Assembly: GCF_002148795.1 (NCBI RefSeq)
Contig: NZ_MPOB01000005.1
Coordinates: 301,023 to 365,022 of the forward strand
Length of the DNA stretch: 64,000 nucleotides
Reading direction: 5' to 3'
Source of the DNA: Oceanibaculum nanhaiense
Lineage (GTDB): Bacteria > Pseudomonadota > Alphaproteobacteria > Oceanibaculales > Oceanibaculaceae
Position 1 is the first letter of the stretch. The number at the start of each line of letters is the position of its first letter. The notes below the pieces were generated by a model, which was given only the letters and a program-made list of their open reading frames with translations, searched no databases and was not told the DNA's origin. Below are positions 1 to 33,541 of this stretch, in pieces. Position numbers and translations under genes: made by a program.

Positions 1-1041
1 GACGCCGCGCTCGGTGATCAGGCCGGTGACCAGCCGGGCCGGCGTGACGTCGAAGCCGTAATTGGCGACGCTGCTCTCCTCCGGCGTCACCCGTACCGGC
101 AGTACCTCGCCATCCGCCGTGCGGCCCCAGACATGGGTGACCTCGGCGGCGTCGCGCTCCTCGATGGGGATGGCGCGCCCGTCGGACAGCGACCAGTCGA
201 TGGTTGGCGAGGGCAGCGCCACATAGAAGGGCACGCCATTGTCGCGCGCCGCCAGCGCCTTCAGATAGGTGCCGATCTTGTTGCAGACATCGCCGGTGGC
301 GGTGGTGCGGTCGGTGCCGACGATCACCATGTCCACCATGCCGTTCTGCATCAGATGGCCGCCGGCATTATCGACGATCACCTTGTGCGGCACGCCGTGA
401 TTGGCCAGCTCCCACGCCGTCAGCCCGGCGCCCTGGTTGCGCGGCCTTGTCTCGTCCACCCAGACCTGCACCGGGATGCCGCCGTCATGTGCCTGATAGA
501 TCGGCGAGGTCGCGGTGCCCCAATCCACCGTCGCCAGCCAGCCGGCATTGCAGTGGGTCAGGATATTGACCGGCTCGCCGGGATTCTTGCCGGCGGCGAT
601 GTCACGGATGATCGCCAGCCCGTGCCGGCCGATGGCGTGGTTGATCGCCACATCCTCGTCCGCGATCGCCCCGGCGCGGGCGAAGGCGGCGGCGGCACGC
701 CCGGCGGACGGCAGCGGCGCCAGCGTGCCGCGCATATCCTCCAGCGCCCAGCGCAGATTGATCGCGGTCGGCCTTGTGGCGGCCAGCGTGTCGATGGCGC
801 CTTCCAGCGCGGCGTCGGACGCGTCGGCGCGCATCGCCAGCCAGACGCCATAGGCCGCCGTGGCGCCGATCAGCGGCGCGCCGCGCACCAGCATGGCGCG
901 GATCGCCTCCGCCGCGTCGGCCAGCGTCTCCAGCCGCGCCAGCACGAACGCGTGCGGCAGCCGGGTCTGGTCGATGATCGAGACGGCCTGTCCGTCCGCG
1001 CTCGGCTGGATCGGCCGCATCGGGGTGCCCTTCACCTTCAT
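1..1041 (-). CDS. mtnA: S-methyl-5-thioribose-1-phosphate isomerase (partial, C-terminus cut by window edge)
   Basis: Isomerises methylthioribose-1-phosphate to methylthioribulose-1-phosphate in the methionine salvage pathway (cytosol). The frame stays open from an ATG at 1041 to the left edge, 347 codons, against a usual 360-370 residues, so only a short C-terminal tail is missing. An AGGAGG ribosome binding site lies a few bases upstream of this ATG. The catalytic Cys motif THCNAG is near residue 162 and the catalytic Asp motif [11 protein letters not shown] near residue 241, at the positions known for the Bacillus subtilis enzyme. It is divergent from purB. The preceding pathway enzyme, MTA phosphorylase, is encoded about 12 kb away on the other strand, so the pathway is split rather than an operon here. 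The eIF2B-alpha-like fold is shared with translation factors, but the active-site motifs make MtnA the clear choice. Confidence 0.95.
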
Positions 1042-1152
1042 GCGATGCCTCCTTTCTTTTGCGTGGGCGTTACATGGCCCAATTCAGTATAGCCCCGGCG
1101 GCAGGATTGCTATACTCCGGCCCCGATATTCCGTAACGATGAAGACGAGCCC
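1042..1152. promoter_or_regulatory. Divergent mtnA/purB promoter region
   Basis: A 111-bp gap between two divergent genes must hold both promoters. It contains AGTATA at 1086-1091 and TATACT at 1111-1116. These form an inverted repeat, and each reads as a -10-like TATACT on one strand. No convincing -35 boxes were found, so the assignment is tentative. Confidence 0.3.
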
Positions 1153-2454
1153 ATGATTCCGCGCTATTCCCGTCCGGCCATGACCGCCATCTGGGCGCCC
1201 GAGAACCGATTCCGCATCTGGTTCGAGATTGAGGCGCACGCCACCGACGCGCTGGCCGAGCTGGGCGTGGTGCCGAAGGAGGCCGCCAAGGCGATCTGGG
1301 AGCGTGGCCAGGGCAAGGTCGATCCGGCGCGCATCGACGAGATCGAGCGCGAGGTGAAGCACGACGTCATCGCCTTCCTGACCAACCTTGCCGAGCATGT
1401 CGGTGAGGAAGCCCGCTTCGTCCATCAGGGCATGACCTCGTCGGACGTGCTGGATACCTGCCTGTCGGTGCAGCTGGCCGAGGCGACGGACATCCTGCTG
1501 GAGGATATCGACCAGCTGCTGGCCGCGCTGAAGCGCCGCGCCTATGAGTACAAGGATGTGGTCTGCATGGGCCGCAGCCACGGCATCCATGCCGAGCCGG
1601 TGACCTTCGGGCTGAAGCTGGCCACCTTCTATGCCGAGTTCAAGCGCAACCGCGACCGGCTGGCCGCCGCGCGCGAGGAGATCGCCACCTGTGCGATTTC
1701 CGGCGCCGTCGGCACCTTCGCCAACATCGACCCGCGCGTCGAGGCGCATGTCGCGAAAAAGCTGGGGCTGAATGTCGAGCCGATTTCCACCCAGGTGATC
1801 CCGCGCGACCGGCATGCGATGTATTTCGCGACGCTGGGTGTGATCGCCAGCTCCATCGAGCATCTGGCCATCGAGATCCGCCATCTGCAGCGCACCGAGG
1901 TACGCGAGGCGGAAGAGTATTTCTCGCCCGGCCAGAAGGGCAGCTCGGCGATGCCGCACAAGCGCAACCCGGTGCTGACCGAGAATCTGACCGGCCTCGC
2001 CCGGCTGGTGCGCGGCATGGCGATTCCGGCGATGGAGAATGTCGCGCTGTGGCACGAGCGCGACATCAGCCATTCCTCGGTCGAGCGGATGATCGCCCCT
2101 GACGCCACCGTGACGCTGGATTTCGCGCTGGCCCGTCTGACCGGCGTGATCGACAAGCTGGTGGTCTATCCCGACGCCATCGATAAGAACCTGAACCAGC
2201 TGGGCGGGCTGGTGTTCTCGCAGCGCGTGCTGCTGGCGCTGACGCAGGCCGGGGCCAGCCGCGAGGATTCCTACCGCCTCGTGCAGCGCAACGCCATGCA
2301 GGTCTGGGAAAAAGGCGCGAACTTCCTCGATCTGCTGAAGGCCGACAAGGACGTGACCGCGAAACTGTCCGAAGCCCAGCTGGAGGCGCTGTTCGACATG
2401 GGCTACCACACCAAGCATGTCGATACGATCTTCGCCCGGGTGTTCGGGGCGTAA
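1153..2454 (+). CDS. purB: Adenylosuccinate lyase
   Basis: Catalyses two fumarate-releasing steps of purine synthesis: SAICAR to AICAR, and adenylosuccinate to AMP. The 433-aa length is normal. The fumarase/aspartase superfamily signature GSSAMPHKRNP lies at about residues 263-273, with the flexible catalytic-serine loop. TSSDVLDT (about residue 96) and GRSHGIHAEP (about residue 138) carry the active-site residues of this family. The start is the ATG at 1153 because the N-terminus IPRYSRPAMTAIW matches the family start closely. It stands alone, divergent from mtnA, and ends in a strong rho-independent terminator. purC and purS lie 1.6 kb downstream on the same strand but are separated by a divergent gene pair. 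High confidence. Confidence 0.97.
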   Translation: MIPRYSRPAMTAIWAPENRFRIWFEIEAHATDALAELGVVPKEAAKAIWERGQGKVDPARIDEIEREVKHDVIAFLTNLAEHVGEEARFVHQGMTSSDVLDTCLSVQLAEATDILLEDIDQLLAALKRRAYEYKDVVCMGRSHGIHAEPVTFGLKLATFYAEFKRNRDRLAAAREEIATCAISGAVGTFANIDPRVEAHVAKKLGLNVEPISTQVIPRDRHAMYFATLGVIASSIEHLAIEIRHLQRTEVREAEEYFSPGQKGSSAMPHKRNPVLTENLTGLARLVRGMAIPAMENVALWHERDISHSSVERMIAPDATVTLDFALARLTGVIDKLVVYPDAIDKNLNQLGGLVFSQRVLLALTQAGASREDSYRLVQRNAMQVWEKGANFLDLLKADKDVTAKLSEAQLEALFDMGYHTKHVDTIFARVFGA

Positions 2455-2479
2455 GGCCAGAACAGCGAGCCGAAAAGCA

Positions 2480-2509
2480 AATGCCCGGGCAAGACCCGGG
2501 CATTTTTTT
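2480..2509 (+). terminator. Rho-independent terminator of purB
   Basis: A 10-bp perfect stem (AATGCCCGGG at 2480-2489 pairing with CCCGGGCATT at 2495-2504) has a 5-nt loop and is followed by a run of T residues to 2509. It begins 26 bp after the purB stop codon. Confidence 0.85.
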
Positions 2510-2512
2510 CGC

Positions 2513-2613
2513 CGTCACGCCCGGCCTTGTGCCGGGGGTCCAGGGTTCAGCTTACTGGATCATTGGACGAGTAGGCTGATACCTGGATTCCCGGGACAAG
2601 CCCGGGAATGACA
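2513..2613. repeat. Intergenic palindromic repeat pair (REP/BIME-like)
   Basis: Two palindromic units flank about 35 bp of unique sequence. One is a CGTCACGCCCGGCC-type unit ending in GGGGGTCCAGGG (2513-2545). The other is CCTGGATT followed by CCCGGGACAAGCCCGGG and AATGAC (2582-2612). The same two unit types recur at 22211-22323 and 43630-43882, always between genes and oriented tail to tail. Confidence 0.7.
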
Positions 2614-2631
2614 TGCTGAGTTGGGGGCGGG

Positions 2632-2952
2632 TTACTCCGCCGTGATCTGGCGCTGCGCCTCGTCGAGCATCTCTTCCATCTGCTTCAGCAGGCGATGCTC
2701 GCTCATCTCCAGCTTGGCGGTCTCGAAATCGGCCATCAGCTTGGCGATGACATCGTCATGGCCGGGCTTCTCGAAGTCGGATTCGACGACGCTCTTGGCA
2801 TATTCCTCGGCTTTGTCGCCGGTGTGGCCCAGCAGCCCGGCCGCCCACAGCCCGACAAGCTTGTTGCGCCGCATGATGATCTTGAAGCGGAGTTCCGCAT
2901 CGTGCTTGAACTTGTTCTCGAAGGCCTGTTCGCGCTCGCTGAAAGACGCCAT
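2632..2952 (-). CDS. DUF1476 family protein (alphaproteobacterial F1-ATPase zeta inhibitor)
   Basis: A 106-aa, highly charged, helical protein beginning MASFSEREQAFENKF. The DUF1476 family includes the zeta subunit characterised in Paracoccus and relatives, which binds F1F0 ATP synthase and blocks ATP hydrolysis by inserting its N-terminal helix. The conserved stretch RRNKLVGLWAAGLLG is at about residues 28-42. An upstream in-frame start at 3000 would add 16 unconserved residues. The ATG at 2952 has a GGAG ribosome binding site and fits family length, so it is preferred. The gene is divergent from the NRDE gene. Family identity is firm; the inhibitor role here is by homology. Confidence 0.88.
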   Translation of the reverse strand: MASFSEREQAFENKFKHDAELRFKIIMRRNKLVGLWAAGLLGHTGDKAEEYAKSVVESDFEKPGHDDVIAKLMADFETAKLEMSEHRLLKQMEEMLDEAQRQITAE

Positions 2953-3088
2953 GCTGCTGCTCCGCTCTGTTACCTTGCATCGACGGCGCATCCGCGCCAC
3001 TCACTTCCCATATAGGGTTGCGCCCTTATCTACGCTATCGCCCTGCGATTCTGAACCATCAATTTCGTGACGCTTTCCGGAAAATGCC

Positions 3089-3883
3089 ATGTGCACCGTC
3101 ATTCTGTTGCATCGTCCCGGCCATGACTGGCCGGTCCTGATCGCCGCCAACCGGGACGAGATGGCCGGCCGGCCCTGGCAGCCGCCGGCCCGGCACTGGG
3201 AAGATCGGCCGGACGTGACAGCCGGGCTCGACGTGCTGGCGGGCGGAAGCTGGCTTGGTCTCAACGACCATGGCGTGGCGGCGGCGATTCTGAACCGGGT
3301 CGGCACACTGGGCCCGGCCCCCGGCAAGCGCAGCCGGGGCGAGCTGGTGCTGGATGCGCTGGACCATGCCGACGCGGCGCTGGCGGCGGAAGCGCTGGCC
3401 GATCTCGATCCCGCCGCCTACCGGCCTTTCAATATGCTGCTGGCCGACAGCGATGGCGGCTACTGGCTGCGCAGCGAAGGTGGCGCGGGCGGCCATATCG
3501 AATTGCACCCGCTGCCGCCTGGCCTGCATATGCTGACGGCGCGCGACATCGACGACCGCACCAGCCCGCGTATCGACCGCTACCTGCCTCTGTTCGAGAA
3601 CGCCGCCGTGCCCGATCCCGTCACCGGTGACTGGACGGAATGGTGCAATCTGATGGCCGCCACGGAGCATGATCCCGCGGCCGGCCCGCGCGGCGCCATG
3701 ACCATTCGCCCCGAGGATGGCGGCGGGAATGGCTTCGGCACCGTCTCCTCCTCGCTGATCGCGCTTCCGCGCCCGACCGGGCCGGGAGAGGCTCTCCTGA
3801 AGCCGGTCTGGCTGTTCGCACCAGGCGCGCCGGATGCGACGGAATATGAACCGGTGTCGCTCGACCAGAAGAGACAAGGCTAA
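3089..3883 (+). CDS. NRDE family protein (TANGO2-like)
   Basis: A 264-aa protein starting Met-Cys-Thr and carrying the family-defining NRDE motif (residues 22-25, in AANRDEMAGRP). The NRDE/TANGO2 family has an Ntn-hydrolase-like fold in which Cys2 becomes the N-terminal residue after Met removal, but the substrate is unknown. Eukaryotic TANGO2 has been linked to Golgi organisation and to haem or lipid homeostasis; bacterial members are uncharacterised. Further conserved pieces are GGSWLGLNDHGVAA and a C-terminal GTVSSSLIAL stretch. It is divergent from the DUF1476 gene and precedes purC by 124 bp, with a promoter in between, so it is probably its own transcription unit. Confidence 0.9.
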   Translation: MCTVILLHRPGHDWPVLIAANRDEMAGRPWQPPARHWEDRPDVTAGLDVLAGGSWLGLNDHGVAAAILNRVGTLGPAPGKRSRGELVLDALDHADAALAAEALADLDPAAYRPFNMLLADSDGGYWLRSEGGAGGHIELHPLPPGLHMLTARDIDDRTSPRIDRYLPLFENAAVPDPVTGDWTEWCNLMAATEHDPAAGPRGAMTIRPEDGGGNGFGTVSSSLIALPRPTGPGEALLKPVWLFAPGAPDATEYEPVSLDQKRQG

Positions 3884-26953: not shown

Positions 26954-27967
26954 TCACCCCACGCCGGCCTGCAGCAGGTCGTGGATATGCACGAAGCCCT
27001 GCGGCTTGCCATCCTCGCCGACCACGAACAGGCCGGTGATGCGGCGCTCGTTCATGATCGCCAACGCCTCGGCGGCCAGCGCGTCCGGGCGGATCGTCTT
27101 GGGGTCGCGGGTCATGACCGCGCCCGCCGTCTCGCTCAGCAGGGTGGGGGCCATATGGCGGCGCAGATCGCCGTCGGTGATGATACCGGCCAGCCGGCCC
27201 GCCGCATCGACGATGCCGGCGCAGCCGGTGCCATGTTCGCTGATGCCCAGCAGCACGTCCGACATCGGCGCGTCGGGGCCGCTCAGCGGCAGCCGGTCGA
27301 GCCCACGCATCATCGCCTTCACCTTCAGCAGCTGCTTGCCCAGCTTGCCGCCCGGATGGAACACCTGGAAATCGGCGGCGGTGAAGCTCTTGCGCTGCAG
27401 CAGCGTGACCGCCAGCGCGTCGCCCAGCGCCAGCATCAGCGTGGTCGAGGTGGTGGGGGCGAGGCCCATCGGGCAGGCCTCCGGGCAGGCCGGCAGCACC
27501 AGCGCCGCATCGGACGCCTCGGCCAGCGAGCTGCCGGCGCGCTCGGTCACGCCGATCAGCGGAATCCGGAAGCGCGCGGCATAGTGCAGAATATCGGCCA
27601 GTTCCGTGGTGTCGCCGGATTTGGAGAAGGCAATCACCGCATCCTCGGTGCCGATCATGCCAAGGTCGCCGTGGCTCGCCTCGCCGGGATGGATGTAGTA
27701 GGCGGTGGTGCCGGTCGAGGCCAGGGTCGCCGCCAGCTTGCGCGCGATATGGCCGGATTTGCCCATGCCGGTGACGATCACCCGGCCCTTGACGCCGGCC
27801 AGCAGGTCGGCAGCCTTGCAGAAGGCGCTGCCGAACGGTCCGTCGAGCTGCCGCGCCAGCGTCTCCAGCGCCTGCGATTCGATCTCCAGCACGCGCCTGG
27901 CGTGGGCGATGTCCTCGGCATGGAGATCCGTGGGCGCGGCGGTGGTATCGGCGGTCTTCATGGGCAT
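26954..27967 (-). CDS. kdsD: Arabinose-5-phosphate isomerase (KpsF/GutQ/KdsD family)
   Basis: Interconverts ribulose-5-phosphate and arabinose-5-phosphate, the precursor of Kdo for LPS or capsule. It has 337 aa. The SIS domain lies at about residues 50-190 (GMGKSGHIARKLAATLAS; SKSGDTTELADIL; HPGEASHGDLGMI). Two CBS domains follow at about 215-330 (APMSDVLLGISEHGTGCAGIV... region). Catalytic His residues typical of the family are present near ASHGDLG. It is the last gene of the galE-to-kdsD set on this strand and lies 71 bp after the RimK-like gene. In this setting a surface-polysaccharide role is natural. Confidence 0.93.
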   Translation of the reverse strand: MPMKTADTTAAPTDLHAEDIAHARRVLEIESQALETLARQLDGPFGSAFCKAADLLAGVKGRVIVTGMGKSGHIARKLAATLASTGTTAYYIHPGEASHGDLGMIGTEDAVIAFSKSGDTTELADILHYAARFRIPLIGVTERAGSSLAEASDAALVLPACPEACPMGLAPTTSTTLMLALGDALAVTLLQRKSFTAADFQVFHPGGKLGKQLLKVKAMMRGLDRLPLSGPDAPMSDVLLGISEHGTGCAGIVDAAGRLAGIITDGDLRRHMAPTLLSETAGAVMTRDPKTIRPDALAAEALAIMNERRITGLFVVGEDGKPQGFVHIHDLLQAGVG

Positions 27968-28038: not shown

Positions 28039-29499
28039 TCACGCCTCCAGCCGTTTCAGGAACCAGCGCACGAGGCGCTTCCACAGCTCGTCCTTCAGCG
28101 CCGAATCCTCGACGCCGGTATCGAGGTTGGGGTTGTCGTTGATCTCGATGACGAAGACGCCGCGCTCGTTCTGCTTCAGATCGACGCCATAGAGCCCGCT
28201 GCCGATGAGGCGCGCGGCCTTCACCGCGACATCCACCACTTCCGGCGGCGCCTGCTCGATGGCAAAGCTCTTGAAGCCGCCATGGGTCGCCGGCCCGTCG
28301 GCATTGTGCTTCACGATCTGCCAGTGCTTCTTGGCCATCAGATACTGGCACACGAACAGCGGCTCGCCATCCAGTACGCCGACGCGCCAGTCATAGTCGG
28401 TCGGCATGAATTCCTGCGCCAGGATCAGGTCGGATTCCTCCAGCAATTCGCGGCTGATCTTCTTCAGCTCGGCCCGGTCGCCGGCCTTGTGGACGCCACG
28501 GCTGAAGGACCCGTCGGGGATCTTCAGCACCATCGGATAGGCCAGCTCACTCTCCAGCTCCTCCAGGCTCTTCATGGCGTTGACCACCACGGTCTTCGGC
28601 GTCGGCACCTTGTTGGCCTTCAGCAGCTCCGCCAGATAGACCTTGTTGGTGCAGCGCAGGATCGAGGTCGGATCGTCGATCGCCGGCATGCCTTCCAGCT
28701 CCGCCTTCTTGGCGAAGCGGTAGGTGTGGTTCTCGATGGTCGTGGTTTCGCGGATGAACAGCGCGTCATATTCGGCGAGGCGCAGATAGTCCTTCTTCTC
28801 GATCAGCTCGACATCCACGCCCATGCCCTCGGCGACGCGGATCAGCTTCTTCAGCGAGGAGGGATCGGAGGGCGGCAGCTCCTCCTTCGGGTTGTACAGC
28901 ACCGCCATGGTGTATTTCGCCGGCGCGCGGGTCTTCGGCTGGCGCCAGCCGGCGCGGGTGTACTGGTCCAGCGCCCAGTTGAACAGGGTGTGCTGGTCTT
29001 CGTCGAGATCGTCGATGCCGAGCGCGCTGATGCCGGTGATCTTCAGCCATTCGCCATGCCGGACCGTGACTTCCAGCAGCGGGCAGCGGAAGCGGTCGAA
29101 CACATGCCGGGCGAAGGCCTGGAAACGGCTGTCATAGGGATAGCCGAAGGCGATGCGCAGCCGGAAGGATTCGCCGGGCGGGTTGACCAGCCGCTTCACC
29201 CGCCGGTTCAGCTCTTCCTCCAGATCGGCGATCTCGCCGGAATACAGACTGCGCTGGCGCAGCTGCAGGATGGTATCAACCGTCGGCAGCACCCGGTGGC
29301 TGCGCGCCTCGGCCAGCAGCGAGCAGTAATAGCCCTGGGAGAGATAGGCATAGCTGCGCGACAGGTTGATGATCTTGGGGTGCTGCAGCTTCAGGCTCTG
29401 CGGCAGGGCGATATAGTCGCGCGTGCGCAGGATCGCGCGATCCTCCTCCATGCCGGTGAAATCGGCCCGGCGGTCAACGACAATGACCCAGTCGCTCAT
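28039..29499 (-). CDS. RimK family ATP-grasp ligase with RLAN N-terminal domain
   Basis: A 486-aa two-domain protein. Residues 1 to about 170 match the RimK-like ATP-grasp N-terminal (RLAN) domain (MSDWVIVVDRRADF; GYYCSLLAEARSHRVLPTVD). Residues of about 285-480 are an ATP-grasp ligase domain with the Lys/ATP region YPMVLKIPDGSFSRGVHKA and the Mg-binding end FVIEINDNPNLDTGVED. ATP-grasp RimK homologues join amino acids to amines, for example glutamates to ribosomal S6, but this subfamily's substrate is unknown. Its start overlaps the GNAT/C39 gene (ATGA), a pairing I recall as conserved and proposed to make or process a peptide modification. Function is predicted. Confidence 0.9.
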   Translation of the reverse strand: MSDWVIVVDRRADFTGMEEDRAILRTRDYIALPQSLKLQHPKIINLSRSYAYLSQGYYCSLLAEARSHRVLPTVDTILQLRQRSLYSGEIADLEEELNRRVKRLVNPPGESFRLRIAFGYPYDSRFQAFARHVFDRFRCPLLEVTVRHGEWLKITGISALGIDDLDEDQHTLFNWALDQYTRAGWRQPKTRAPAKYTMAVLYNPKEELPPSDPSSLKKLIRVAEGMGVDVELIEKKDYLRLAEYDALFIRETTTIENHTYRFAKKAELEGMPAIDDPTSILRCTNKVYLAELLKANKVPTPKTVVVNAMKSLEELESELAYPMVLKIPDGSFSRGVHKAGDRAELKKISRELLEESDLILAQEFMPTDYDWRVGVLDGEPLFVCQYLMAKKHWQIVKHNADGPATHGGFKSFAIEQAPPEVVDVAVKAARLIGSGLYGVDLKQNERGVFVIEINDNPNLDTGVEDSALKDELWKRLVRWFLKRLEA

Positions 29500-30668
29500 G
29501 AACCCTTTTGCTCCCGTCGCTTCAGCACGATGGCGGCACGCAGATCGTTGCGGCCATACCGCGCCATTGTCTCGAATTCGCGTTTCGGTATCGGCATGTT
29601 GGCCTTATCGGAGATCAAATCCAGATGGTCGGGATCGACCAGCGGATCGTGGGCATAGATGAAACGCTCGTCCTGCGCATGCACCACGATCCAGTGCGGC
29701 ACATTCTCGCGATACATGCGGTAGAGGCTAATCAGAACGATGGGAATGGCGCCCTGTTCCAGCGCCACCGTCATCTCCTCCAGCGTCAGCGCGCGCTGAT
29801 GCACCGCGATGTCGGTTTCCGCCATCTGTTCGGCGAATTCGTCGGAGACCAGCTGGATGACGCGCTTCTTTTCCGCGCTGCGCACGGTGTCCAGGAAGAA
29901 CGGCGCCTCGCTGTTGACATAGAGATCGACCGCGAAGCCGCGCCGGTGCGCCGCCAGCGCGATGCCATAGGGGCCGCAGCCGCCATGGCCCGACGACATG
30001 AAGATCGAGGTCGCCTCGCGCCAGAGCTGCAGTTCCAGGCGCTGTCCCAGCTCGGTCGCCGGCTCCAGCGCCTTCATCGCCATCATCAGGGCGGCGGGGC
30101 CGCAGGTGAAATCCGTGGTCTGGCTGTAATAGGGCACGCGGGTTTCCGGCGGCACCACATAGGGGCGCAGCCGCTTCTGGTAGCGCAGCGCCTCGCTGTG
30201 ATCCTCGTAATAATCGAGATAGCGCCCGAATCGGCGATAGCCCGCCGCCTCGTACAGCCGGGTGGCGGCCCGATTGTCGGGCCGGACCTCAAGGCGCATC
30301 AGCCAGGCATCTTCCTCGATGGCGGCCTGCTCGGCGGCCAGCAGCAGCGCCTGGCCGACACCCTGGCCGCGCGCCGCCGCCGCGACCGCCAGCGAATAAA
30401 TCCGCGCCAGCGAGGTGCCGCGCCGGAACAGCGCCAGCACATAGCCCAGAAGATGGCCGTTCTTGTCCTCCGCCAGCAGGCAGGCGGCATGGGCGCGCGT
30501 CAGCAGGTACTGGAAGTTGCGGCGGGTCAGCCGGTCGGTCTCGAAACTGCGTGTTTCCAGCTCCAGCAACGCGTCGATATCTCCGACCGTCGCCGGGCGG
30601 ATCGCGGGCGAGTCGGGCAATGGGGGCAGGGCACTTGCGGCGGACACGATATCGGTCGGCAACGCCAT
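29496..30668 (-). CDS. GNAT acetyltransferase / C39-like peptidase fusion
   Basis: A 390-aa fusion. Residues 22-165 are a GNAT domain with the acetyl-CoA loop RGQGVGQALL (100-109) and RLYEAAGYRR. Residues 175-385 are a papain-fold C39-like peptidase domain (DUF3335-type) with the likely catalytic Cys189 in DFTCGPAALMMAM and a His in PHWIVVHAQDERFIYAHDP. The C39 fold normally cleaves after double-Gly leaders, but no transporter domain is attached. The 4-bp overlap with the RimK-like ligase gene suggests one pathway: ligate, acylate and trim a peptide or protein tail. No obvious ribosome binding site precedes the start; an AT-rich stretch at 30677-30695 may be an internal promoter. Confidence 0.9.
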   Translation of the reverse strand: MALPTDIVSAASALPPLPDSPAIRPATVGDIDALLELETRSFETDRLTRRNFQYLLTRAHAACLLAEDKNGHLLGYVLALFRRGTSLARIYSLAVAAAARGQGVGQALLLAAEQAAIEEDAWLMRLEVRPDNRAATRLYEAAGYRRFGRYLDYYEDHSEALRYQKRLRPYVVPPETRVPYYSQTTDFTCGPAALMMAMKALEPATELGQRLELQLWREATSIFMSSGHGGCGPYGIALAAHRRGFAVDLYVNSEAPFFLDTVRSAEKKRVIQLVSDEFAEQMAETDIAVHQRALTLEEMTVALEQGAIPIVLISLYRMYRENVPHWIVVHAQDERFIYAHDPLVDPDHLDLISDKANMPIPKREFETMARYGRNDLRAAIVLKRREQKGS

Positions 30669-30692: not shown

Positions 30693-32378
30693 TTAGTTGG
30701 ATTGCCGGGCCGCGTCCAGTTCAACCGGGGCCGTCCTGTCCTGCGCGATCCGCCGGTCGTCCAGCGGGCTGAAGGAGTCCACCAGAAAATCGCGGAATGC
30801 CGCCATCGGCCGGCGCGGCGCGGCGGGGTCGGGGATCATGCCCGGACGGAAGTCCCAGTCGAGGAAGGGGCGCAGCAGGGCGGGATCGCCGCTCAGCACA
30901 TGCACCGGCACGGCGCGGGAGCCGGTATCGCCGGCGATGAAGCCGGGCGGCTGGTGGTCGCCCAGCAGGATCAGCAGCGTGCGGTCATCGGCATGGCGTG
31001 CGGCATAGGCTTGCAGTACGGCCAGCGCCCGGTCCAGTGCCACCGCATAGGCCAGGCGGATGCGGCCGGTATCCTGCCAGAGCGCCTCCGGGTCGCCGCC
31101 CTCCCGGGGCAGATCTCGGAACAGCGATCCGTCGCCCAGCCGCTCCCAGTCCTCGACCAGCGGCGCCAGCGGCGTGAAGGGGGCGTGGCTGTCGATCAGC
31201 GAGAATTTGGCGAAGACCGGCGGGCGCCCGCCCGGCGGCAGGCGGCGCTCATCCTGCTCGAAACGATGCAGCGTGTACTGGTCCGGCATGGTCTTCCAGC
31301 CATAGGCCGGGCCTGCATAGCCCATCTCGCCGGCGGTCAGTGTCGCGTCGAAGCCGAAGAAGCCGCCGGCCGGCCAGGGCCGGGTGATGGCGGGCTCATA
31401 GGCGATGGTGCGGTAGCCGGCCTTCGCGAAATAGCGTTCCAGCGTGCGGCGGTTTCCGGTGGTCAGCAAATCGTAGCGCTGCTGGCTGTCGATGGTGAGG
31501 CCGGACAGGACCGAGGCATGGGCCAGCCAGGACTGGCCGCCCGCCATCGGCGCCACCAGCCAGCCCGACACCGCCTGCAGGCCGGCGGCCTCCGCCGTCG
31601 CGGCGAAACGCTCCAGCCGGGCCGTGATGCGCGGAGCGTAGAGCGGGTTGGTGAGCGCGCTTTCGCCATAGGATTCGACAAAACCCAGCAGCACGTCCGC
31701 GCCCTTCAGCCCGGCCAGCAGCCGGTTGCGGGGGATATCCTGCAAACTGTCCTCGGCCTCGGCGGCGCGGAAGGCAGGTTCGCTCGTCTGCAGCTCGCGG
31801 TATTGCGTCCATTGGCTGACAAGCGCCACGCCGGCGCTGGTCGAGGCCGGCCAGTAGGTGCCGAAATAGTCGGGACGTTCGCGTTGCAATGTCTGCACGG
31901 TGACGCCGGTCAGTGCCAGCAGCAGCGCCACGGCCTTCACGCCGGGATGCCGGCCCAGACGCTGTACCGACCGCGCCGCCCGCAGGACAAGCCCATAGGC
32001 AGCCACCGGCAGCAGAAAGAGGCCCAGCAACGCCGCCAGCCCGCCCCACAGGCCGAAGCTGCCGATGGCGAGGTCATGCAGCGCGCGGATCAGCGGCAGG
32101 TCGAGGGCCAGATTCAGGGGCCGGTTCAGTGCCAGCCGGACCATCAGGTCGCCCAGTGCCAGCACGGTAACCAGCGCCGCCAGCGCTGCTGCCAGATGCC
32201 GCGCCCGCTTTCCGCGCAGCGCCGGCACCAGCGCAAGGGCCGCCAGCACCGCCAGCGCTTCGACCGAGAAAGCGACCAGATGCGTCGGCCAGTAGGTAGG
32301 CATGCGGAACGGCAGCGCCACCAGCCAGGAAAGGCCGAGGGCGAGCAGCAGGTAGGACAGAACGGGCATCAGGGGCAT
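30693..32378 (-). CDS. Sulfatase-fold membrane transferase/hydrolase (LtaS/MdoB-like)
   Basis: A 561-aa protein with about four or five N-terminal transmembrane helices (residues 1 to 170) and a periplasmic alkaline-phosphatase/sulfatase fold. The metal site is suggested by FVESYGESAL, the likely nucleophile by Ser in GGQSWLAHAS (about residue 280) and the C-terminal metal ligands by LLGDHQPPG. This layout resembles enzymes that transfer phosphoglycerol or phosphoethanolamine to envelope glycans, or that remove them. It follows galE by 24 bp and precedes the GNAT/C39 gene by 24 bp, so it is likely an envelope-glycan decoration enzyme. The donor and acceptor are unknown. A Met at codon 4 is an alternative start. 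Confidence 0.82.
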   Translation of the reverse strand: MPLMPVLSYLLLALGLSWLVALPFRMPTYWPTHLVAFSVEALAVLAALALVPALRGKRARHLAAALAALVTVLALGDLMVRLALNRPLNLALDLPLIRALHDLAIGSFGLWGGLAALLGLFLLPVAAYGLVLRAARSVQRLGRHPGVKAVALLLALTGVTVQTLQRERPDYFGTYWPASTSAGVALVSQWTQYRELQTSEPAFRAAEAEDSLQDIPRNRLLAGLKGADVLLGFVESYGESALTNPLYAPRITARLERFAATAEAAGLQAVSGWLVAPMAGGQSWLAHASVLSGLTIDSQQRYDLLTTGNRRTLERYFAKAGYRTIAYEPAITRPWPAGGFFGFDATLTAGEMGYAGPAYGWKTMPDQYTLHRFEQDERRLPPGGRPPVFAKFSLIDSHAPFTPLAPLVEDWERLGDGSLFRDLPREGGDPEALWQDTGRIRLAYAVALDRALAVLQAYAARHADDRTLLILLGDHQPPGFIAGDTGSRAVPVHVLSGDPALLRPFLDWDFRPGMIPDPAAPRRPMAAFRDFLVDSFSPLDDRRIAQDRTAPVELDAARQSN

Positions 32379-32402: not shown

Positions 32403-33401
32403 TCAGCCGGGGCGTTTGCGCTCCCACGCCCAGGCATGCTCGACGATGGTATCTAGGTCGCTCATCGTTGGTTCCCAGTTGAGCACGCGCTTTGCCTTGG
32501 CGATATCGGCGACCAGCCGGGCCGGGTCGCCCGGCCGGCGCGGACCGTGACGGACCGGCAGTGCCTTGCCGGTGACCCGCTCCACGGTTTGCAGCACCTG
32601 CAGTACGGAACGGCCCTCGCCGCCGCCCAGATTGAAGGCGCCCGACTCGCCGCCGTCGCGCAGATGCTCCAGCGCCAGCATGTGCGCCCGGCACAGATCC
32701 AGGACATGCACATAGTCGCGGATGCAGGTGCCGTCCGGCGTGTCGTAATCGCTGCCGTTCACCACCATCTCCGCGCGCTTGCCGAGTGCCGTGTGCAGCG
32801 CCAGCGGGATCAGATGGGTTTCCGGTTCATGCCGCTCGCCCAGCCGTGCCCCGGGATCGGCCCCGGCGGCGTTGAAATAGCGCAAGGCCGCCCAGCGCAG
32901 CCCGTGGCTGTCGGCGCGCGCTGCCAGCGCCTGCTCGACCAGCAGCTTCGATTCGCCATACGGGTTGATCGGCTTTGTGGGGTGATCCTCCGGGATTGGT
33001 ATGGTTTCCGGCTCGCCATAGATCGCGGCGGTGGAGGAGAACACCAGCGGCGGCGGCACATCCCGCGCGGTCAGCACATCGAGGAACACCAGCGTGCGCC
33101 GGTGATTATTCTCCAGATAGCGCTCCGGTTCGCGCACCGACTGGCCGGCCTCAATGAGGGCCGCGAAGTGGAGAACGGCATCGGGCCGCCCCTCGTCCAG
33201 CAGCCAGCCGACCAGCGCCGCGTCGCCGATATCGCCGGTGACCAGCCGCGCGCCACTGACCGCGACCGCCTCTTCATGGCCGCTGACGAGATTGTCCAGG
33301 ACCACGACATCATGTCCGGCCTCTGCCAGCATCAGCGCCATCTGGCTGCCGATATAGCCAGCGCCGCCGGCGATCAGGATATGCTGCTTCGTCTTCGCCA
33401 C
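32403..33401 (-). CDS. galE: UDP-glucose 4-epimerase
   Basis: An NAD-dependent extended SDR that interconverts UDP-glucose and UDP-galactose. From the GTG at 33401 the protein has 332 aa. The nucleotide motif is HILIAGGAGYIGSQMAL (GxxGxxG), the active site is SSTAAIYGEP and YGESKLLVEQ (Tyr-x3-Lys with Ser), and FNAAGADP and NLGGGEGRSVLQV are typical of GalE. The GTG is chosen because GGGAG lies 6 bp upstream and the domain begins there; the frame extends to 33452. It is the first gene of a set leading through the sulfatase-fold, GNAT/C39 and RimK-like genes to kdsD. Other UDP-sugar epimerases remain possible. Confidence 0.9.
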   Translation of the reverse strand: MAKTKQHILIAGGAGYIGSQMALMLAEAGHDVVVLDNLVSGHEEAVAVSGARLVTGDIGDAALVGWLLDEGRPDAVLHFAALIEAGQSVREPERYLENNHRRTLVFLDVLTARDVPPPLVFSSTAAIYGEPETIPIPEDHPTKPINPYGESKLLVEQALAARADSHGLRWAALRYFNAAGADPGARLGERHEPETHLIPLALHTALGKRAEMVVNGSDYDTPDGTCIRDYVHVLDLCRAHMLALEHLRDGGESGAFNLGGGEGRSVLQVLQTVERVTGKALPVRHGPRRPGDPARLVADIAKAKRVLNWEPTMSDLDTIVEHAWAWERKRPG

Positions 33402-33541
33402 GGTGGCTCCCGCCTTGTTCTTTTTGGCACTTCCCTTTAGCACAGGGCGCAACCCGGTACCCCTGCCGACTTGACGGGAGGAAGCCGCCGGAACAGTGTG
33501 CCAGTCAAGTTTCGATCAACAAAAAGCAACATAACCGCAAG

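Follow-up and report, generated by a model that had tools for sequence, protein, structure and literature searches.

What do an ATP-grasp ligase, an acetyltransferase and a papain-like domain encoded by two overlapping genes make or cut together, and on which target? An earlier note on this DNA had proposed that the three activities form a trio (ligate, acylate, cleave) able to build and trim a peptide or amide tail, perhaps on an envelope glycan or protein, by an undescribed pathway. In the following, the window is the whole stretch of 64,000 nucleotides from Oceanibaculum nanhaiense, and the pair designates these two genes.

Both genes are on the minus strand. The first one (29496-30668) encodes a protein of 390 aa, in which a GNAT domain is fused to a DUF3335 (papain/C39-like) domain. 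The second one (28039-29499) encodes a protein of 486 aa made of an RLAN domain and a RimK-type ATP-grasp ligase. As first claimed, the start of the ligase gene and the stop of the GNAT-DUF3335 gene share an ATGA overlap (29496-29499, minus strand). Chance open reading frames are excluded because the same gene pair is found in more than 100 other loci. Pfam agrees with each of the domain calls made from the letters alone (GNAT, C39-like, RLAN, RimK-type ligase). In neither protein was a hydrophobic signal or membrane segment detected, so that both look cytosolic.

In the ligase, the RLAN domain (PF14401, 28978-29421, minus strand; E-value 1.7e-41, 141.8 bits for a cut-off of 25) precedes the RimK-like ATP-grasp core (PF08443, 28117-28647, minus strand; E-value 2.7e-11, 43.8 bits for a cut-off of 21), which is the layout of the RLAN-type RimK-like ATP-grasp proteins. 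The partner gene of this family, a GNAT often fused to DUF3335, is also present in the window. The metal and ATP residues of the ligase are invariant among aligned relatives; Lys286, Lys326, Asp370, Arg372, Asp440, Glu452, and Asn454 are conserved in 50/50 aligned sequences; of these, Asp440, Glu452, and Asn454 correspond in an alignment to the Asp/Glu/Asn positions of LysX. In the AlphaFold2 model (pLDDT 88.4, pTM 0.64), the closest solved folds are those of LysX/ArgX and RimK, with a TM-score on the target reaching 0.85.

The GNAT domain of the partner protein (PF00583, 30237-30572, minus strand; E-value 9e-17) is of the RimI/Ard1 type and carries the RGQGVGQ loop pointed out earlier. Its best solved folds are CBU0801, Ard1, NatA, and RimI; the fold is that of an alpha-amine acetyltransferase. 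Glu127 is kept in 44/44 and Tyr139 in 37/44 of the aligned relatives, and we take these two residues to be the equivalents of Glu103 and Tyr115 in RimI. The DUF3335 domain, named "Peptidase_C39 like" in Pfam (PF11814, 29520-30137, minus strand), is matched over its full length (1-206 of 206; E-value 1.8e-86, 289 bits), and the whole protein is modelled by AlphaFold2 with a pLDDT of 91.5 and a pTM of 0.88. The domain has a Gln/Cys/His/Asp catalytic set on the minus strand: Gln183 (30120-30122), the predicted nucleophile Cys189 (30102-30104), which the earlier note had already singled out, and His325 (29694-29696) are each found in 44/44 aligned relatives, and Asp341 (29646-29648) in 43/44. In papain, the catalytic residues are Gln19/Cys25 and His159/Asn175. 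The DUF3335 domain resembles papain in that the spacings read from the sequence, 6 residues between Gln183 and Cys189 and 16 between His325 and Asp341, match those of Gln19-Cys25 and His159-Asn175. Because its catalytic residues are conserved with the papain spacing, this domain is expected to be catalytically competent. Profile searches against solved structures gave weak matches, the best being a C39 protease (E-value 0.004).

How constant is the association of these parts? The survey was made within Pseudomonadota, with simple ORF rules for gene calling in GC-rich loci, and used 80 named loci, the relatives of the window genome, and 40 stretches taken from further families of this phylum. 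In 120 of 124 loci, the RLAN gene has within 400 bp a GNAT belonging to the same subfamily; the counts of this survey are not independent, since the 80 named loci are the top-scoring matches of the query and many of them come from Mesorhizobium. When one partner is counted per locus, the GNAT is upstream on the same strand in 96 cases, divergent in 18, and downstream in 6. In one locus (L144:8133-10103), GNAT and RLAN-ATP-grasp are fused into a single protein of 656 aa, and a separate GNAT-DUF3335 gene stands 40 bp from the fusion on the other strand. In two sister genomes of the same genus (G298 and G408), the ligase frames are of similar length (667 aa), which suggests that the same fusion is encoded there. 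The changes in orientation, together with the fusion, argue for a functional coupling of ligase and GNAT that goes beyond shared ancestry alone. The coupling seen by the earlier note is thereby borne out, and the association of the two genes is not a random one. Counted over 399 sampled Pseudomonadota genomes, RLAN is present in 72 and DUF3335 in 58; 57 of these 58 also carry RLAN (hypergeometric P about 1e-53, a value that ignores relatedness between genomes).

RLAN genes with no adjacent GNAT were found at L083, L086, and L133 and on two plasmids, from Pseudomonas aeruginosa (L168) and Legionella (L169); L072 also shows an RLAN gene alone, but there a contig end cuts the locus. A tblastn search of plasmids returned a few distant homologues. 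On the P. aeruginosa plasmid (NZ_CP133752.1), the stretch covered around the RLAN ligase gene has no GNAT or DUF3335; genes for glutamate/aspartate transporters and ggt are 2 kb away from the ligase gene. On the Legionella adelaidensis plasmid (NZ_LR134436.1), positions 41-3232 hold, in a tight row, an RLAN ligase, a GCS2 glutamate ligase, and an N-formylglutamate amidohydrolase, a setting that fits glutamate-type amide chemistry. GNAT and DUF3335 were looked for on this plasmid and neither is present.

The C39-like domain behaves differently from the GNAT. Of the 120 paired loci, 30 lack it and have a lone GNAT of the same subfamily next to the ligase; these adjacent GNATs score 83-196 bits, versus 27-53 for distant GNATs. 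On a FastTree phylogeny of the ligase, presence of the domain changes about 15 times, an exact number being unsure owing to long branches. The C39-like domain is therefore dispensable, and the core of the module consists of GNAT and ligase. An obligate trio was thus rejected: its ligation and acylation parts make the best reading of the pair, whereas cleavage as an obligate part does not hold. DUF3335 proteins with no detectable GNAT domain and no RLAN nearby also occur (L161-L163). In three of them (L162:2133-3194, L162:11189-12397, and L163:8245-9339), the 150 N-terminal residues are barely or not recognised as GNAT. Methanosarcina acetivorans, used as a control genome, has a DUF3335 match and no RLAN match, so that the domain exists in an archaeon without the ligase.

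The surroundings of the pair had suggested an envelope glycan as its target. In the window, the pair belongs to a run of five genes on the same strand. It is preceded by galE (32403-33452) and a gene for a sulfatase-like membrane protein (30693-32378; PF00884 E-value 0.008, below the cut-off), and followed by a KdsD-type gene (26954-27967); from galE onwards, the successive intergenic distances are 24, 24, -4, and 71 bp. The KdsD-type gene encodes a SIS-CBS protein of the KpsF/GutQ family (TIGR00393), which is over the cut-off of this subfamily but under that of KdsD itself. This run speaks for a decoration of an envelope glycan or LPS with an amino-acid or peptide amide; its order is kept in the genus relatives G001 and G003, as well as in G002 as far as the contig stretch could be read. 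However, galE and kdsD homologues adjoin the pair in none of the surveyed loci outside the genus. In G031, G036, and G056, the sulfatase-like gene and RLAN are not linked, and G018 has the former without the latter; the sole exception is an Inquilinus locus (L010), in which the sulfatase-like gene adjoins the pair but is on the other strand. Glycan neighbours are thus confined to the genus, apart from this one gene, and the galE/sulfatase-like/kdsD setting is a genus-level arrangement. As the neighbours are not conserved, a glycan-operon function was rejected as a general reading; with two enzymes that both look cytosolic, decoration of an envelope glycan seems very improbable to us. More generally, clustering of neighbours in two locus sets revealed no third gene family conserved across lineages, and no precursor peptide, transporter, or regulator conserved beside the pair. 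Random variation, which had been envisaged for the neighbours, describes the flanking genes but not the pair. Near the pair, DUF2817 was met in a few loci and DUF155 in four, a recurrence that is only local. Putative DUF2817 proteins, weakly similar to succinylglutamate desuccinylase/aspartoacylase, lie at most some 2 kb away from it at L074:11477-12565, L135:10848-12026, and L141:12582-13715; the Pfam check concerned the L074 copy.

Considering these properties, a cytosolic module may be proposed, in which the ATP-grasp enzyme would ligate one or more amino acids, the GNAT would N-acetylate the product, and an optional papain-type domain would act as a hydrolase or transpeptidase. We regard this reading, drawn by analogy with characterised relatives, with about even confidence. 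The RLAN-ATP-grasp protein would use ATP to convert a carboxylate into an acyl phosphate, which would then be joined to the amine of an amino acid or peptide. The RimI/Ard1-type GNAT would place an acetyl group on the alpha-amine of either the substrate or the product, following the example of Ngg. Where present, the papain-like domain would hydrolyse or transfer an amide bond, either for turnover or as a last trimming or transfer step. We infer an amino acid or a small peptide as the substrate; the order of the steps and the part played by the protease domain are to be read in the same conditional way. We favour a cytosolic pathway whose product would be an N-acetylated peptide or isopeptide, because a ligase combined with an alpha-amine acetyltransferase follows the logic of Ngg. 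It may even be imagined, more tentatively, that the pair represents a second widespread Ngg-like pathway, present in the Pseudomonadota genomes with RLAN (about one in six) and producing a metabolite of the N-acetylated peptide or isopeptide type, the papain-type domain serving for release, transfer, or turnover in many lineages.

Relatives of RimI and RimK also modify protein termini, so that a protein substrate has to be considered too. In this main rival to the cytosolic module, the ligase would add amino acids to the terminus of one particular protein, as RimK does on S6, the GNAT would cap this tail or modify another terminus, and the papain-like domain would remove the tail in the manner of RimB. 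The nearest characterised relatives of the ligase in sequence and fold, RimK and LysX, do have protein C-termini or carrier proteins as their substrates, those of the GNAT are RimI and Ard1, and RimK/RimB offers the precedent of a ligase and a protease dealing with protein tails (PMC12239564). But the genome has a separate RimI, the ligase stays under the RimK-family cut-off (96 versus 143 bits), a quarter of the paired loci have no protease domain, and no conserved gene for a protein substrate or carrier is found beside the pair. These observations make protein tailing a less probable explanation than the cytosolic module. Alternatively, the chief catalyst might be the papain-like domain: like phytochelatin synthase or BtrH, it would serve as a transpeptidase or acyltransferase and pass to an acceptor the aminoacyl unit that the ligase has made. 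The complete papain catalytic set is conserved, as such a role would require, and structures of the BtrH N-terminal domain are among the weak sequence matches of DUF3335. The BtrH match is not significant, however (E-value about 0.15), and ligase and GNAT persist without the domain in 30 loci, which makes a leading role of this domain unlikely.

To what extent was this system already described? The pair belongs to a family known by computation and uncharacterised. The Pfam entry for RLAN (PF14401) presumably links this domain with the GNAT-DUF3335 fusion, and Iyer, Abhiman, Burroughs and Aravind are reported to have made the same connection in 2009. A full-text search of the literature for PF14401 or the RLAN domain found no characterised member of the RLAN-ATP-grasp/GNAT-DUF3335 family. 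On this point, the earlier description of the pathway as undescribed stands. It does not extend to the fusion itself, since DUF3335 is described in a 2023 classification of papain-like proteins as a frequent fusion partner of GNAT domains, which might act as peptide ligases or acylases, with reference to Iyer et al. 2009 (PMC10318531). What the present analysis adds is that the C39 domain is labile next to a constant GNAT, that GNAT and ligase are fused in one locus, how often RLAN and DUF3335 co-occur, and that the glycan context carries little weight. A module so common in the sampled Pseudomonadota and so well conserved has yet no characterised member in the literature searched. The survey designates GNAT and ligase as the parts to be studied jointly, the protease domain being secondary, and the glycan setting is no guide to the product. 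In this respect, the natural one-chain fusion of L144 is a practical target for assays.

Compared with known systems, the pair is an ordinary member of the RLAN-ATP-grasp/GNAT-DUF3335 family (PF14401 and PF11814), with the same domains, the same fusion, and full-length matches. Orthology to RimK, RimI, or Ngg was rejected, because curated cut-offs are missed and RimI and Ngg occur elsewhere in the genome. With RimK, LysX, and ArgX, the ligase shares the ATP-grasp core, the metal and ATP residues, and the fold, but it has an extra N-terminal RLAN domain; it scores 96.4 bits against the RimK alpha-L-glutamate ligase family (TIGR00768), for a cut-off of 143.4. No RimA or RimB neighbour and no LysW-like carrier was seen beside it, and no protein of the genome is over the RimK-family cut-off. 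RimI/Ard1 N-alpha-acetyltransferases are the best match of the GNAT in fold and sequence, with the catalytic Glu and mostly the Tyr kept; its score with the RimI family (TIGR01575) is 76.7 bits for a cut-off of 86.4, which another gene of the genome passes. The Rlo system of Pseudomonas aeruginosa (RloABC) comprises an ATP-grasp ligase, a secreted aspartic protease, and a membrane transglutaminase-like protein (PMC12239564). It resembles the pair in that an ATP-grasp ligase is genetically paired with a protease, and differs in that its protease and transglutaminase-like protein take the place of the GNAT and papain-like domain.

Finally, Ngg, made of a GNAT and an ATP-grasp, N-acetylates glutamine and ligates a second glutamine to give N-acetylglutaminylglutamine, and a putative aminopeptidase is encoded in its operon (PMC8070244). 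The genome has a genuine Ngg outside the window (G000:C3:379531-381159; TIGR03103, 908 bits), which is a separate GNAT and ATP-grasp osmoprotectant enzyme. With the same model, the ligase of the pair has no match and its GNAT reaches 23.5 bits for a cut-off of 569. The Ngg system also includes AsnO, which is not found next door to the pair. The likeness of the pair to this maker of an N-acetyl dipeptide lies in a GNAT and an ATP-grasp working jointly, with a peptidase associated; it is an analogy of logic rather than of membership.
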